Assembly: GCA_018434245.1 (NCBI GenBank)
Contig: JAHDPQ010000052.1
Coordinates: forward strand, 1-50,019
DNA from: Oscillospiraceae bacterium
GTDB taxonomy: Bacteria; Bacillota; Clostridia; Oscillospirales; Ruminococcaceae
DNA: 50,019 nucleotides
Reading direction: 5' to 3'
Numbering within the stretch: the first letter of the stretch is position 1; each line of letters starts with the position of its first letter. The notes beneath the pieces were generated by a model that was not told the DNA's origin, ran no database searches, and saw only the letters and a program-made list of their open reading frames with translations. Both the position numbers and the translations under genes were made by a program. Positions 7,148 to 35,542 of this stretch are shown piece by piece.

Positions 7148-7314
7148 ACCTTTCACTCTGTCCTTTTGCCTGAGAGATTAACGCAAACTGGTCGCGTCTT
7201 GCACCTTCGGCACCCGATAGACGGGATTCTCCAGAGCCACATCCATTCATAGTCTTTGCCCGATACTTCAGGCGCCTGAGAGTGTTACTCCTTCGGCAGA
7301 CCGCAGTCATTTTC
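7148..7314 (-). ncRNA. Glycine riboswitch (tandem, first aptamer atypical)
   Basis: The minus strand contains a convincing 3' aptamer: GGAGA, a hairpin, GCCGAAGGTGCAA, a further hairpin, then CTCTCAGGCAAAAGGACAGAG (about 7150-7172). Upstream a second copy is recognisable by GCCGAAGGAGTAA and CACTCTCAGG (about 7275-7300), but its 3' half is diverged and lacks the normal AAAAGGAC segment. This is the known architecture of Firmicute glycine riboswitches upstream of AGCS symporters and glycine-cleavage genes. Confidence 0.9.
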
Positions 7315-7492: not shown

Positions 7493-7507
7493 TAACACAA
7501 CAAGCAC

Positions 7508-7690
7508 TGTCAGGTGCGCAGGTGCTTTGCGTGGCAAAGCATCGGTGCGAGAATAGGGAAGTCGGGTGAAAATCCCGCGCGGTACCGCCGCTGTAATGGG
7601 TTAGCGGCATTCCAAGGTGTCACTGTGGTCATACACGGGAAGACGGAATGCGCAGCACAGCCCTAAGCCAGAAGACCTGCCTGATGGTTA
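7508..7690 (+). ncRNA. Cobalamin riboswitch
   Basis: The conserved core is visible in order: a CAGGTGC start, the GGGAA-GTCGGGTGAAAATCCC segment, GCGGTACCGCCGCTGTAA, then the B12 box AAGCCAGAAGACCTGCC (about 7664-7680). A terminator follows at 7791, so B12 should switch the operon off by termination. A second stem, CCCCTGAAAAA with TTTTTCGAGGGG (7693-7721), lies between them and may be the alternative (antiterminator) structure. Confidence 0.95.
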
Positions 7691-7790
7691 TACCCCTGAA
7701 AAACGCTGCTTTTTCGAGGGGAAGACGCACTGTCAACGAGCTATTGACGGGTGTGGATCAGTAACAGGCCGGCGTTGCTTGTGAACAGAA

Positions 7791-30012: not shown

Positions 30013-32421
30013 CTACCGGGCAAACACCAGACCTGCATAACGCACCGTTTCCATGGCGTTTTTGGCATAGCGGTCGGCACCGATCTGGTCGGCGTATTCC
30101 TGAGTCAGAACGGCGCCACCCACCACCACCTTGCAGCCCGGGCACTGCTGCCGCAGCAGGGCAATGGTCTGAGCCATGGCCGGGACGGTGGTGGTCATCA
30201 GGGCACTGAGCCCTACCAGTCGGACGTCGTGGTCCAAGGCTGCCTGCGCCACTCTCTGAGCCGGGACATCCCGCCCCAGATCGATGACCCGGTAGCCGTA
30301 GTTTTCCATAAGAGCCTTGACGATGTTCTTGCCGATGTCGTGAATATCCCCCTTGACGGTGGCCAGCACCACGGCAGGCCCGGAACCTTGGGTGGCAGGC
30401 ATGGCCTCCCGCACCACCTCAAAGGCGGCTTTGGCGGCTTCGGCACTCATCAGCAACTGGGGTAAAAACACCGTCTTGTTTTCAAACCCTTGCCCCACCA
30501 CATCCAGTGCCGGAACAATTTGCTCGTTGATCAGAGTCAAAGGCTCTATGGTGGCAAGGGCCTCCCGGGCCAGATGGGCCGCGTCCTCCTGCAGGCCGCG
30601 GATGATGGCTCCCTGCAGGCCCTCCCGGGAGGGGGGACGCTGGCCTAGGGCGGCGGGAGCAGAACTGGCGGTTTCCACCGTCAGGTTCTGGGCAAAGGCA
30701 ATGTAGGAGCTGCAGTTGGGGTCCATCCCCGCCAGCGCCAGATAACTGTGGTAGGCCTTCATCATCTCGGTGGAGTAGGGGTTTAAAATGGCGGCGTCCA
30801 GCCCCCGGCTCAGCGCCATGGTAAAAAAGGTGGCGGTGATAAAATCCCGGTGAGGAAGGCCAAAGGAGATGTTGGAAACTCCCAGAGAGCAGCAGGCCCC
30901 CAGCCCCTCCCGAATGAGGGGGATGGTGTCCAGTGTGACCTGAGCTGCCGCAGAATCGGAAGAAATAGTCAGCGCCAGAGGATCAAAGATCAAGTCGTGG
31001 ACCCCAATGCCATACTCCGCCGCCCGCCGGGCAATCCGCTTGGCAACGGCAAAGCGGTCCTCTGCCGTTTCGGGAATCCCCCCTTCGTCCAGAGTCAGGC
31101 AGACCACAAGGCCTCCATACTTCTTTACCAGGGGGAAGACGGCGTCCATGCTTTCGGCGCTGCCGTTGACCGAGTTGACCATGGGCTTTCCGTTGTAAAT
31201 CCGCATGGCCCGCTCCATGGCCATGGGGTTGGAGGTATCCAGCTGGAGGGGCAGGTCGCAGACTCCCTGCAGCTCCCGGACGCAGTCCACCAGCATGGCG
31301 GGCTCGTCGATTTCCGGAAGGCCCACGTTTACATCCAATACGTGGACTCCCTGCTCCTGCTGATCCAGCCCTTCCTTGAGAACATAACCCATGTCCCGGG
31401 CGCGAAGGGCTTCCTTAAACCGCTTCTTCCCGGTGGGGTTAATCCGCTCGCCGATGAGCACCGGGGCCTTACCAAAGCTGATCGCCCGGGTGTAGGAGCT
31501 GATGACGCTGCGGCTTTTTTGGGTGACGGGAAGGGGAGCAATCCCCGACGCAGCCGCCACCAGTTCCCGGATATATTCTGGGGTGGTGCCGCAGCAGCCT
31601 CCCACAACCCGAGCGCCCCGTCCCACCATTTCCTCCATCACTTGGGTGAACTCCTCGGGGCCTACATCAAAGACAGTGTGCCCCTGTTCCGGCCGGGGAA
31701 GGCCGGCGTTGGGTTTGACCAGCAGTGGCGTGGAAGAGCAGGCGGTAAACCGGGGGAGCAGCTCCAGCATCTGACGGGGACCCAAAGAGCAGTTAAGGCC
31801 GATGACATCGGCTCTCAGCCCCTCCAGCATGGCCACCATGGCCTCGGGGCTAGCGCCGCTCATCAGCTGTCCGTTCTCGTCGTAGACATTGCTGACAAAC
31901 ACCGGGAGATCACAGTTTTCCTTGGCGGCCAACACTGCTGCCTTGGTCTCGTAGCAGTCGTTCATGGTCTCGATCAGCACAAGGTCAGCTCCGGCTTTGG
32001 CTCCTGCCCGGATCACCTGAGCAAAGAGCTCCACCGCCTCTTCAAAGGCAAGGTCCCCCAAAGGGGCCATCAGGCGGCCCAGAGGGCCCACATCCAAGGC
32101 GATGAACTTGTGGGCTTGCCCTCCCACAGCAGAGCTACGGGCTGTTTGGAGGCAGCTGACCGCAGCGGTGACCACCGCCTCCACAGTGGGGCGGCCCTCG
32201 TTGCCGTCAAACTTCAGGGCGTTGGCTCCAAAGGTATTGGTGCAGACAGCGTGGCTGCCTGCCTCGTAATAGGCTTTGCCGACAGCGGTGATTTCCCCTG
32301 GGTGGCTCAGGTTCCACAGCTCGGGCAGCTCCCCGGGAGCAAGGCCCCGCTCCTGCAGCAGGGTTCCCGTACCGCCGTCCAGAAAAAAAATCCCCTGCCC
32401 GATACAATCTAAAACATTCAT
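30013..32421 (-). CDS. metH: Cobalamin-dependent methionine synthase, short form
   Basis: 802 residues. Order of domains: homocysteine-binding barrel (about 1-300; zinc Cys pair in VVGGCCGTTPEYI), methyl-tetrahydrofolate pterin-binding barrel (about 315-580; PVLIGERINPTGKKRFK), B12-cap helices (about 590-680) and cobalamin-binding domain (about 685-800; VKGDIHDIGKNIVKALMENYGYRVIDLG with the cobalt-ligating His). The C-terminal AdoMet reactivation domain of long MetH is absent; the adjacent gene supplies an activation protein. It methylates homocysteine. SD AGGAGA, 9 bases after that gene. Confidence 0.96.
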   Translation of the reverse strand: MNVLDCIGQGIFFLDGGTGTLLQERGLAPGELPELWNLSHPGEITAVGKAYYEAGSHAVCTNTFGANALKFDGNEGRPTVEAVVTAAVSCLQTARSSAVGGQAHKFIALDVGPLGRLMAPLGDLAFEEAVELFAQVIRAGAKAGADLVLIETMNDCYETKAAVLAAKENCDLPVFVSNVYDENGQLMSGASPEAMVAMLEGLRADVIGLNCSLGPRQMLELLPRFTACSSTPLLVKPNAGLPRPEQGHTVFDVGPEEFTQVMEEMVGRGARVVGGCCGTTPEYIRELVAAASGIAPLPVTQKSRSVISSYTRAISFGKAPVLIGERINPTGKKRFKEALRARDMGYVLKEGLDQQEQGVHVLDVNVGLPEIDEPAMLVDCVRELQGVCDLPLQLDTSNPMAMERAMRIYNGKPMVNSVNGSAESMDAVFPLVKKYGGLVVCLTLDEGGIPETAEDRFAVAKRIARRAAEYGIGVHDLIFDPLALTISSDSAAAQVTLDTIPLIREGLGACCSLGVSNISFGLPHRDFITATFFTMALSRGLDAAILNPYSTEMMKAYHSYLALAGMDPNCSSYIAFAQNLTVETASSAPAALGQRPPSREGLQGAIIRGLQEDAAHLAREALATIEPLTLINEQIVPALDVVGQGFENKTVFLPQLLMSAEAAKAAFEVVREAMPATQGSGPAVVLATVKGDIHDIGKNIVKALMENYGYRVIDLGRDVPAQRVAQAALDHDVRLVGLSALMTTTVPAMAQTIALLRQQCPGCKVVVGGAVLTQEYADQIGADRYAKNAMETVRYAGLVFAR

Positions 32422-32430
32422 ATCTTTCTC

Positions 32431-33111
32431 CTATATCCGGAATTGGCAATCCGTTTTATCGCATAGCTGGCAGTCGTGAAGAGCGGTCTCGCAGCCGGTG
32501 GATCCTATCCCCACCATAGCGGAAACCGACTTTTGGGGAACCATTAACAGGGACTGGGTCAAAGTGATGCCTGCCTTGCGGTGGCTGTCCAGACAGGACA
32601 GCAGGGTTTTTTGCAGCTCCAGGGGAACATCCCCGTAGCCGGGGCTGAAGCGGGGGCGCAGTCGTTGCCCCGGGAACTGCGCCGCCCATCTGCGGCAGAG
32701 GGTGTCGCAAAAATGCTCGATGGCCGCCGTGCCTAACGCATCCAGCACCACTGCCTTGGCGGGAGAGGTAATTGCGGTTCGCTTTTGCAGCCGCTCTCCC
32801 TCTGCTCCGGTGGTGGCGGCAAACAAAATGGCCTGCCGGCAACCAGACAGGTTTTTGGAAAGGCTTTTGCTGGAAAGGGAAAAGACGCCAAAATCTACCA
32901 GCTCTCCCTTTACTGCAACAGGAAGCACCAGCCGGCAGGCCCGGTATCGGGCAACGGCCTGAAATTCTCCGGCACACTGCTCCGCCAGAGAGGTTAGCGC
33001 TGCATCCGGCTGTGTGCGCCCCATCCCCAGATAGCGGTAGACACTGAGCAGGGGGACTTCCAGCTGCGAAGCCGGGTATTCGATGGACTCTACCCTTCCA
33101 TTTGCCTTCAT
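32431..33111 (-). CDS. Methionine synthase activation domain protein (stand-alone reactivase)
   Basis: 226 residues. The central RPRFSPGYGDVPLELQKTLL segment corresponds to the RxxPGYxxxP AdoMet-binding motif of MetH activation domains, and the C-terminal CETALHDCQLCDKTDCQFR cluster is typical of the stand-alone TM0269-like proteins. It probably returns oxidised cob(II)alamin of MetH to the active state using AdoMet. It overlaps metF by 4 bases and precedes metH by 9, so all three proteins are made together. Confidence 0.9.
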   Translation of the reverse strand: MKANGRVESIEYPASQLEVPLLSVYRYLGMGRTQPDAALTSLAEQCAGEFQAVARYRACRLVLPVAVKGELVDFGVFSLSSKSLSKNLSGCRQAILFAATTGAEGERLQKRTAITSPAKAVVLDALGTAAIEHFCDTLCRRWAAQFPGQRLRPRFSPGYGDVPLELQKTLLSCLDSHRKAGITLTQSLLMVPQKSVSAMVGIGSTGCETALHDCQLCDKTDCQFRI

Positions 33112-33974
33112 TTGATGATCTCCGAAAGATTCTCTTGAATTTTTTGGGCTACCGAGGCGTTGTTCATAGAGTACACATGCACTGCCGGAACGCCGTTGGC
33201 AAACAGGTCCACAATTTGCTCGGTGGCGTAGGCGATGCCGGCCTGCTTCATGGCTTCGGGGTTTTGGCCGAAGCGGTCAAGAATATAGCGGAACCGCTGG
33301 GGAAGCACCGTACCGGACAGAGCTGTGATCCGGGCAATTTGCCGGACGTTGGTCACCGGCATGATGCCCGCCACCACCGGCACCTGAATTCCCGCTTCCC
33401 GCACTTTATATAGGAAATTGTAGTAAATATTGTTATCAAAAAACATTTGGGTAGTGAGAAAATCGCAGCCGGCATCCACTTTCTTCTTCAGGTTGGCGAT
33501 ATCCTCCGCTTGATTGGGGGATTCTATATGGCCTTCGGGATAGCAGGCGCCGCCAACGCAAAAGCCGCCATACTCCCGAATCTCCCACACCAGCTCACTG
33601 GCATAATGGTAGTCCCAGTCTTGCTCCACAGCGGCTCCGGGAGCCAGATCCCCCCGCAGAGCCAGTATGTTCTGGATCCCCGTTTGGCGCATGGTATCCA
33701 GCTGATGGCGCACCCCCTCCCGGGTGGAGCTGATGCAGCTGAGATGGGCCATCACCGGTACCCGGAACTGGTTCTGAATCCCCGCAGCAATAGAGACGGT
33801 GTAGGCGCTGGTTCCGCCGCCGGCCCCATAGGTGACGCTCATGTAGCTGGGGGCAAGCTGGGCGATGGACTGGGCCGTCGCCTGAATGCTCTCGTAGGCG
33901 GCGCTATTTTTGGGCGGAAAAATCTCGAAGGAAAGGGAAGGCTTTTTGTCTTCTATCACTTGAATCAGTTTCAT
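33108..33974 (-). CDS. metF: Methylenetetrahydrofolate reductase
   Basis: 288 residues, TIM barrel of the MetF family: SFEIFPPKN near the N-terminus (catalytic Glu), YMSVTYGAGGG, a NILALRGD motif near residue 105, and a CDFLTTQMFFDNNIYYNF segment. It makes 5-methyl-THF for MetH with reduced flavin. The ATG at 33974 follows GAGGTG 6 bases upstream; longer in-frame starts lie in the leader terminator. First gene of the operon. Confidence 0.96.
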   Translation of the reverse strand: MKLIQVIEDKKPSLSFEIFPPKNSAAYESIQATAQSIAQLAPSYMSVTYGAGGGTSAYTVSIAAGIQNQFRVPVMAHLSCISSTREGVRHQLDTMRQTGIQNILALRGDLAPGAAVEQDWDYHYASELVWEIREYGGFCVGGACYPEGHIESPNQAEDIANLKKKVDAGCDFLTTQMFFDNNIYYNFLYKVREAGIQVPVVAGIMPVTNVRQIARITALSGTVLPQRFRYILDRFGQNPEAMKQAGIAYATEQIVDLFANGVPAVHVYSMNNASVAQKIQENLSEIIK

Positions 33975-34018
33975 CTCTATCACCTCATATTCCATAGTGA
34001 GAAAGGGCGCTTCCTCAT

Positions 34019-34058
34019 AAAAAAGTGCCCGGAGCATTTGAAAAAAGCTCCCGGACAC
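34019..34058 (-). terminator. Attenuator terminator in the metF leader
   Basis: On the minus strand GTGTCCGGGAGC (34047-34058) pairs with GCTCCGGGCAC (34025-34035), followed by TTTTTT. It lies 45 bases before metF, downstream of a dedicated promoter with no gene between, so it must act as a regulated terminator. Confidence 0.88.
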
Positions 34059-34130
34059 CGGCGGATTTCCCTGCGATTAAAAATCGGTACCTGTAGGCAG
34101 ACAAAAAGCGCCCGCCAAAGCACGACAAAA

Positions 34131-34217
34131 TCACCCGCACCAATAATGTGTCCGGGAGTAGAGCATTCGTCTGCAGCAAAAGGTATGTTGTAAGTTTTTG
34201 AGCAAAAACCGCTTCAT
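34131..34217 (-). CDS. Candidate Cys-rich leader peptide of the metF operon
   Basis: 28 codons starting ATG at 34217, with GCAGGA 7 bases upstream and TGA at 34131. The peptide begins MKRFLLKN, has adjacent Cys codons 14-15 (HTFCCRRM), a Met at 18, a further Cys at 27 and ends YWCG. Codons 20-24 contain the segment 34148-34158 that is perfectly complementary to the 5' arm of the leader terminator. A ribosome waiting at the two Cys codons would leave that segment free to pair and stop the terminator forming; a ribosome reaching the stop codon would cover it. This mimics amino-acid-operon attenuation. I infer function from layout only. Confidence 0.6.
   Translation of the reverse strand: MKRFLLKNLQHTFCCRRMLYSRTHYWCG
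34148..34158 (-). promoter_or_regulatory. Antiterminator segment of the metF leader
   Basis: CTCCCGGACAC on the minus strand is an exact 11-base complement of the 5' arm GTGTCCGGGAG of the terminator about 90 bases downstream. It lies inside the leader peptide ORF. Confidence 0.75.
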
Positions 34218-34261
34218 CAGTATTTCCTGCTTTATAAACCTTTTTTATGGATATTAGGTAA

Positions 34262-34294
34262 ATTATACCTGTTAACCCTGTCAGTGTCAACAGG
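34262..34294 (-). promoter_or_regulatory. Consensus promoter of the metF operon with overlapping inverted repeat
   Basis: TTGACA (34285-34290), 17 bases, TATAAT (34262-34267): both hexamers are perfect. The inverted repeat CCTGTTGAC/GTTAACAGG (one mismatch, 34268-34294) covers the -35 and spacer, a likely repressor site. It starts just 24 bases beyond the speD stop. Confidence 0.9.
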
Positions 34295-34314
34295 GTGCGG
34301 GGCTGGCACCCCGG

Positions 34315-35298: not shown

Positions 35299-35542
35299 TT
35301 TCACTCTCAGCACTCTTATTGACCGTTTCACAAGTTTTGGTGTGCCGCGCACACTGGTTATAAGTAACCAACTTATAAAATTCGAGCTTTTAACTCAATC
35401 AATAAGGCAACCAATTGCCAATCGGCATTTGACCCGGCTGTCCGCATGGCCTTGACTTTCCCCCAACGAAACCTTGGAGAAAGTGGTCAAAAAAATATTT
35501 GCATGGAAAGCTGTTTGTCCCCGTTTTCCATACTGTCAAGAA

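Follow-up and report, generated by a model that had tools for sequence, protein, structure and literature searches.

In Firmicutes, methionine and cysteine genes are controlled through premature termination of transcription by the S-box (SAM-I riboswitch) and the T-box. Attenuators of the trp/his type combine a leader ORF containing regulatory codons, alternative antiterminator and terminator structures, and amino-acid genes downstream. A Firmicutes representative of these ribosome-mediated systems is Rli60 of Listeria (PMC5864092), and a His leader has been predicted in bacilli: according to that 2010 survey, until then leader-peptide systems were known only in Proteobacteria and Actinobacteria, the atypical ermC apart (PMC2965389). 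As to cysteine, short ORFs that contain runs of Cys codons have been described in front of sulfur genes in Actinobacteria; in Mycobacterium a conserved terminator hairpin was not found and Rho was suggested (Seliverstov 2005, PMC1262725). The first-pass annotation of the locus treated here placed Cys-responsive leaders mainly in Actinobacteria. This needs qualification, as terminator-bearing ones are also predicted outside that group: uORFC-8-2 of Rhodobacterales has a tandem pair of Cys codons, as a rule at positions 14 and 15, a terminator and predicted control by tRNA-Cys charging (PMC8632094).

The locus lies in a window of 50,019 nucleotides, the whole stretch of DNA analysed, from an Oscillospiraceae bacterium, and sits between speD and metF on the minus strand. 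The 5' leader of the metF-metH operon is probably a ribosome-mediated transcription attenuator that senses charged tRNA-Cys, a reading derived from sequence; confidence is high for the attenuator itself and moderate for cysteine as the input of the metF operon. The architecture shared by trp/his-type systems recurs here, with the differences that the regulatory codons are Cys/Met, that the antiterminator strand lies within the ORF a few nucleotides past a CGA-ATG dicodon, and that homologous leaders occur across 11 families of one class. The actinobacterial leaders share the Cys codon runs in short ORFs ahead of sulfur genes. The mycobacterial polycysteine ORFs are reportedly leaderless, going by the title of a 2020 paper by Canestrari, whereas the window ORF is led by a Shine-Dalgarno sequence, has its predicted start 44 nt past the -10 element and is followed by an intrinsic terminator. 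S-box and T-box systems have in common with it the control of sulfur genes by premature termination, but neither is present at this metF. With uORFC-8-2 the window leader shares the tandem Cys codons at 14-15, the terminator and the predicted tRNA-Cys input; the description of uORFC-8-2 places it only upstream of cysS in Rhodobacterales (PMC8632094), whereas the leaders here precede metF, metY, metN-like and transporter genes, and none of the downstream genes identified by HMM is cysS. The features are as follows.

34275..34296, minus strand: inverted repeat ACCCTGT-8-ACAGGGT spanning the -35 element, possible operator
34262..34290, minus strand: sigma-70-type promoter TTGACA-17-TATAAT, 12/12 consensus match
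34225..34228, minus strand: Shine-Dalgarno AGGA of the leader ORF, 7 nt 5' of the ATG
34131..34217, minus strand: leader peptide ORF MKRFLLKNLQHTFCCRRMLYSRTHYWCG, 28 codons, with homologous leaders
34173..34178, minus strand: codons 14-15, TGC TGC, a Cys pair with a putative regulatory role
34164..34169, minus strand: conserved CGA-ATG dicodon, codons 17-18
34148..34158, minus strand: segment 1, antiterminator strand CTCCCGGACAC, ORF codons 20-24 (from pairing and covariation)
34134..34137, minus strand: segment 2, CGGG, able to pair with CCCG of segment 1 as a competing hairpin (from consensus pairs)
34048..34058, minus strand: segment 3 GTGTCCGGGAG, terminator 5' arm, exact complement of segment 1
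34025..34035, minus strand: segment 4, terminator 3' arm (from the computed fold)
34019..34024, minus strand: U-run of the intrinsic terminator, T6
33108..33974, minus strand: metF, methylenetetrahydrofolate reductase (TIGR00676, 315.6 bits against a cut-off of 293.7)
32431..33111, minus strand: MetH activation-domain-like protein (weak TIGR02082 match, E 0.00029, positions 1125-1171)
30013..32421, minus strand: metH, methionine synthase lacking the C-terminal activation domain (TIGR02082 match over positions 8-840 of 1182, under the cut-off for full length)

The genes follow in the order metF, MetH activation-domain-like gene, metH, the first two overlapping by 4 nt. Most of the leader's parts had been read correctly in the first-pass annotation: the perfect promoter, the 28-codon ORF, the TGC pair with a third Cys codon (TGC, codon 27), the terminator just ahead of metF (hairpin and T6, with a measured gap of 44 nt from T-run to the ATG at 33974) and the exact 11-base complement of its 5' arm within codons 20-24 all stand. 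The Shine-Dalgarno sequence, there called good, is acceptable, not strong, consisting of AGGA only. Promoter-like sites of at least 9/12 average 0.5 in shuffles of the region, and an 11-nt complement to the terminator arm never arose when the ORF was shuffled 20,000 times by mononucleotide. Computed folding energies are -18.1 kcal/mol for the 3:4 terminator and -24.1 kcal/mol for the rival 1:3 duplex. A simple terminator scan does not list the window hairpin because its loop is longer than the 3-8 covered by the scan; the weaker hairpin that it does list at 34123-34108 compares with 0.8 expected by chance. A 91-aa ORF whose TTG start coincides with the first base of the -35 element was rejected, since that start would precede the transcript.

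Known regulatory RNAs do not account for the leader. Rfam gave the window leader no match at gathering score and, at E <=10, three matches, all far below gathering scores; RF00162 (SAM riboswitch) and RF00230 (T-box) were not found in it, which confirms the absence of S-box and T-box motifs noted on first inspection, and the proposed check for an aptamer that would explain the antiterminator returned none above gathering score. As Rfam matches are lacking, a SAM riboswitch, a T-box and other Rfam families were rejected; the leaders of 14 related loci are likewise without a match, and leader peptides gave only chance-level matches to NCBIfam and Pfam. Elsewhere the same genome has one SAM riboswitch, 5' of a metK-like gene (named by eye), and 10 T-box matches outside the leader, 6 of them over cut-off. 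Two further observations concern the window at large. An Rfam SpF59_sRNA (ldcC RNA) match lies upstream of speD at 35422-35489 (minus strand) and another near the end of a sister contig (L003:1-78, plus strand); this RNA, described as a streptococcal sRNA, is perhaps a speD leader element here. A glycine riboswitch (7148-7244, minus strand) and a cobalamin riboswitch (7495-7698, plus strand) stand ~250 nt apart on opposite strands.

A blastn search with the metF leader through 396 genomes of the family returned its own genome, one other (G331) and eight short chance-like matches. The G331 leader, MNQLFNVNFCCGRMLYSRTSSMYGCFAVPPSVHGLAN, has a perfect promoter, a strong Shine-Dalgarno sequence and a terminator, and stands ahead of an O-acetylhomoserine sulfhydrylase-like gene (metY); another copy in this genome (L242) precedes metF. 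An exact DNA pattern for CCxRMLYSR matched 2/396 genomes, with one reversed-pattern control match, and was too narrow. Profile R1, made from the leaders of the window, of G331 and of a same-genus metF (L003), was searched over 394 genomes of the order: 121 were listed at E <=1 and 13, own included, were accepted after reading of the loci. Profile R2, with 15 members, listed 73 of 391 genomes of the class at E <=0.05, of which 13 terminator-type (own included) and five terminator-less (L195 among them) were accepted. Reading of the loci dismissed the R1 matches L138, L139 and L142-L148 and the R2 matches L168, L172-L174, L176, L178-L181 and L183-L186 as false, and found L191 to lack a leader ORF. 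The R1 filters were strict and members were possibly missed: L207, L219 and L225 came from a survey of metY, in which the upstream regions of the top 30 metY loci from 79 genomes were read without a model and further members were gained, and were found by R2. In the organism itself the only accepted copy is the one at metF; a second R1 match is weak (C94, E 0.2), and at its metY (L202) a leader copy was not found.

The family so assembled comprises 28 non-redundant terminator-type leaders from 11 families of the class, in-frame CGA-ATG being a condition of the search for this type. The metY-leader script kept one leader per identical peptide, with exact CGAATG, in 60 rows that included spurious ORFs later removed. 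Counts out of 27 omit the near-duplicates L137, L140, L166 and L171, and L242, found later, is in none of them; pairing counts on 26 leaders are the 31 registered rows, a set without L189, minus the four near-duplicates and the wrongly registered L242. A Cys/Met leader family in Clostridia was not recognised in searches of the open-licence PMC literature, from which the conserved peptide strings are absent save CCRML, in six papers with unrelated titles. The window leader is thus a member of a class-wide family absent from the RNA and protein libraries searched, undescribed in the sense of not being found in the literature searched, Rfam 15, Pfam and NCBIfam 20.

A complement of segment 1 follows CGA-ATG at a distance of 82-117 nt in 31/31 terminator-type leaders, with a second arm and a T-rich tail behind it (weak in L134 and L225). 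The 1:3 duplexes span 6-21 nt, the longest with mismatches and the shortest, of only 6 nt, in L189. Leaders pair better with their own segment 3 than with permuted partners (mean score 28.4 against 24.8; 0/20,000 permutations reached it), and at least one foreign segment 3 outscores the own one in 22/27 rows. Among the 26 leaders, paired cells amount to 85.5% against 81.1 in shuffles, and the covariation score is 0.210 against 0.134 (sd 0.018; 0/500 reached it), with at most 0.151 and 17.5-49.7% paired in slid registers; the register was chosen by best pairing, which favours the unslid structure in paired percentage and slides, and the shuffles ignore relatedness. Cells changed on both sides number 24 against 15.4 in shuffles (6/500 reached). 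Two other counts do not stand out from the shuffles: 5 pairs are changed on both sides (reached in 264/500 shuffles), and there are 17 further pair types (reached in 178/500). Segment 1 and a downstream CNGGG form a consensus competing hairpin, extended to CGAAUG/CGUUCG in several members; the hairpin is no more stable than shuffled sequences (mean z -0.38). Sequence and covariation together point to a mutually exclusive antiterminator and intrinsic terminator.

The peptide is conserved around the dicodon. Arg(CGA)-Met, required by the script, is present in 27/27 terminator-type leaders, followed by Leu in 23/27, by Ser at +4 in 23/26 and by Arg at +5 in 25/26. Cys stands at -2 from CGA, the place of window codon 15, in 21/27 leaders and at -1 in 12/27; Met stands at -3 in 12/27. 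At least one Cys occurs at -3 to -1 in 23/27, and Cys or Met in 25/27 when L167, which has two CGAATG, is read at the second (24/27 at the first). Cys residues fill 36/81 places at -3 to -1 against 2/177 at -10 to -4 (Fisher p 4e-19). In L129 and L167, before metN-like genes named by eye, Met-Met without Cys occupies -3 to -1, Met codons in the place of Cys, which makes cysteine and/or methionine the more fitting name for the input. The best reading is that in some members the input is tRNA-Met and that Cys codons, Met codons or both serve as the regulatory ones. Neither residue is found at -3 to -1 in L003, L207 (Phe at the key position) and L242, which keep the other parts. The locus L194 has, after its first attenuator, a second leader ORF dense in Met/Cys codons (MMCMCCMMCCENRIFGVPCLCLMR; L194:1810-1884), and ORFs recognised by eye as metN- and metI-like lie downstream of it.

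Translation was assessed on 21 leaders selected by NF[RC]xGRM; since the motif fixes Asn, Phe and Gly, the absence of nonsynonymous changes at these residues is forced. Outside the motif, Arg at -7 is kept in 20/21 by five different codons, and Leu at -9 in 18/21; Arg at -3, a selected residue, also varies synonymously (CGT, CGC, CGA, CGG, AGG). Such synonymous variation argues that the leader ORF is translated and its product preserved as a peptide. With homologous leaders, covarying pairing and conservation at the protein level, leader-peptide attenuation, and with it the trp/his-type layout first proposed, is strongly supported as a prediction from comparative sequence data.

The predicted mechanism runs as follows. 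When Cys-tRNA(Cys) is scarce, the ribosome on the leader peptide would wait at Cys codons 14-15 (positions -3 and -2). Once codon 15 has entered the A site, the leading edge of the ribosome would lie just past CGA-AUG, leaving segment 1 (CUCCCGGACAC) exposed and the upstream flank covered; segment 1 would pair with segment 3, the 3:4 terminator would be blocked and transcription would enter metF. With plentiful cysteine, the ribosome would cross segment 1 to the stop codon, 3:4 would form and transcription would end. We infer the stalling, the footprint edge, the switch and the signal. A ribosome normally covers about nine nucleotides beyond the codon in its A site (toeprint geometry), and with about nine covered beyond a Cys at -2, this is the right place for induction by shortage of Cys-tRNA. 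The ORF stop lies 20-35 nt before segment 3 in 21/27 leaders, where the ribosome would cover segment 1 and finish short of segment 3, so that the terminator could form; in the window it lies 75 nt before segment 3, and in L161 inside segment 1, 92 nt before.

The genes behind the leaders are metY, metN-like, MetQ/NlpA, amino-acid ABC permease, transsulfuration-type and metF. NCBIfam and Pfam HMMs were run on ten downstream genes in each of two rounds; other metY assignments were made by eye. The gene behind L130 is an O-acetylhomoserine sulfhydrylase over cut-off, and those behind L128 and L133 have MetN as best family, below cut-off. NlpA lipoproteins over the Pfam cut-off, with MetQ models below theirs, follow L162, L163 and L188; amino-acid ABC permeases, with a cystine permease model among the matches, below cut-off, follow L136 and L141; and Cys/Met-metabolism PLP enzymes nearest cystathionine lyase/synthase models, below cut-off, follow L187 and L189. 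Inverted repeats with arms of at least 5 occur at 15/48 leader promoters against 2.06 expected from shuffles, which suggests a shared repressor, perhaps, as a guess, of the Rrf2/CymR kind. Repeats of the type ACCTA-TTGACATAG-TAGGT overlap the -35 element in L141, L162, L163, L166, L169, L171, L188, L189 and L225.

The metF leaders themselves are few and diverse. In a genome of the same genus (G005), with MetF 87% identical, L003 keeps the 12/12 promoter, the ATGAAGCGG start, CGAATG, antiterminator and terminator; the codons before CGA encode DNGK, against FCCR in the window, and its Cys codons sit after the antiterminator (MKRLTDNGKRMLDSRTECCGCFVVPWRSLLACCLGVEE). At the second G331 locus, L242 (metF by sequence), promoter, ORF, pairing and terminator are kept and Cys before the antiterminator is absent. 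The first-pass annotation had proposed aligning orthologous metF leaders and regarded pairing kept without the ORF or its Cys codons as contrary evidence: promoter, ORF, pairing and terminator are indeed conserved in both, and the Cys codons are not, so that the objection applies in part. In L003 and L242 the Cys codons coincide with the antiterminator or follow it, and a ribosome stalled there would be expected to promote termination; such downstream Cys is partly forced, because segment 2 (TGCGGGTG) reads Cys-Gly. Regulatory Cys/Met codons before CGA-ATG are therefore confined to the window among three metF leaders, and the metF Cys signal rests on the family and the window. Cysteine supply as the input is accordingly supported at family level, through Cys at -2, and is not borne out by the other two metF leaders. 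Among 80 named metF loci, where some contigs end close to metF, a match ahead of metF was found only in L035, the contig holding L003, with weak matches L096 and L097 also listed; in a set of 33 metF loci only the window and L003 match. The named contigs whose metF matches best belong to Bacillota, for the most part to Clostridia. A terminator-like hairpin occurs in 26/80 named loci, accompanied by a CC-containing ORF in 3, of which two have weak GTG ORFs and L035 is real. In two family genomes (L008, L009) metF lies, by eye, directly 3' of an apparent cysK-type gene end, which looks like another cysteine/one-carbon gene linkage.

Many metY genes are preceded by leaders without a terminator, of the form NFR[F/Y/C/N]GRM followed usually by UGA or Cys, which R2 finds weakly or not at all. 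Examples ahead of metY-like genes are MQKFFKELLRENFRFGRMC (L101, Oscillospiraceae isolate RGIG4672), MKLLFEKLLRQNFRYGRMCHC (L177) and MTAIFEELVRRNFRFGRM (L209); they stop right after CGA-AUG or soon past a Cys codon, and no terminator before metY was seen by eye in leaders of this type. Terminator-less uORFs were noted at L101, L170, L175, L177, L182, L190, L195, L198, L201, L209-L211, L215, L217 and L223. Of 30 metY loci, 17 have CGAATG in the 330 nt ahead of the gene, where shuffles predict 2.3 (at most 8 in any of 300); the antisense word is found at 1/30. As the profile seeds and the metY-leader script contained CGAATG, the unconditioned test of the codon is the motif-only metY search: all nine NF[RC]xGR leaders found in it, three of which (L209-L211) represent one genus, use CGA. 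Three ideas were dropped on inspection by eye: that CGAATGTG is an RNAP pause consensus, that UGA and Cys interchange as selenocysteine, and that there is read-through into metY.

These metY data lend some weight to an alternative attenuator in which the main signal is not Cys supply but the behaviour of the ribosome at CGA-AUG together with the nascent peptide, an arrest or slow decoding that would sense methionine, SAM or the general translation rate. It would account for the fixed CGA beside another Arg of the peptide using five codons, for the excess of sense over antisense CGAATG before metY, for the frequent RM-UGA and RM-Cys ends, and for L003, L207 and L242, which keep the rest without Cys or Met at -3 to -1. 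Yet it leaves the Cys/Met enrichment before CGA in 25/27 terminator-type leaders unexplained, and outside R-M several peptides (L197, L206, L220) differ widely, in contrast to known arrest peptides; it appears unlikely. An Arg codon kept as CGA beside AUG, while the other Arg codons of the peptide vary, poses a sharp puzzle. A wider and speculative idea, doubtful at present, takes the family beyond the mere counting of codons: CGA-AUG and the preceding peptide may be a dedicated ribosome-pausing device for sulfur amino-acid control, tuned by Cys/Met codons where the pause precedes an antiterminator, or ending a uORF (RM-UGA/RM-Cys) before metY, whose expression it would control where there is no intrinsic terminator.

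Conservation of CGAATG and CTCCCGG at the nucleotide level might instead reflect a protein-free riboswitch or T-box-like aptamer in which the ORF is incidental, but the want of Rfam matches in the window leader and in those of the 14 related loci, the synonymous variation that points to translation, a consensus fold of only 5 pairs and the enrichment of Cys codons make this very improbable. The window leader might also be a copy that has decayed or does not regulate, with a constitutive terminator, control being exerted at the promoter through the operator-like -35 palindrome (34275-34296). The window stop is early compared with its relatives, and the Cys codons are not conserved among metF leaders; however, the 11-bp 1:3 pairing, the ORF start and the terminator persist in L003 despite the divergence around them, and we regard such decay as distinctly improbable.

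On the preferred reading, attenuation by a Cys-sensing leader peptide, a short gene with two Cys codons probably lets this bacterium switch its methionine genes on when sulfur amino acids are scarce. Ribosome-mediated attenuation as such is known; what is new, as predicted from the leaders compared, is a sulfur amino-acid leader-peptide family spanning 11 families of the class. This Cys/Met family would amount to a sulfur regulon that the searched libraries lack, and many short uORFs would gain a likely function. If the pausing device is real, the class would possess a sulfur regulon governed by uORF translation, beside or in place of the S-box and T-box.
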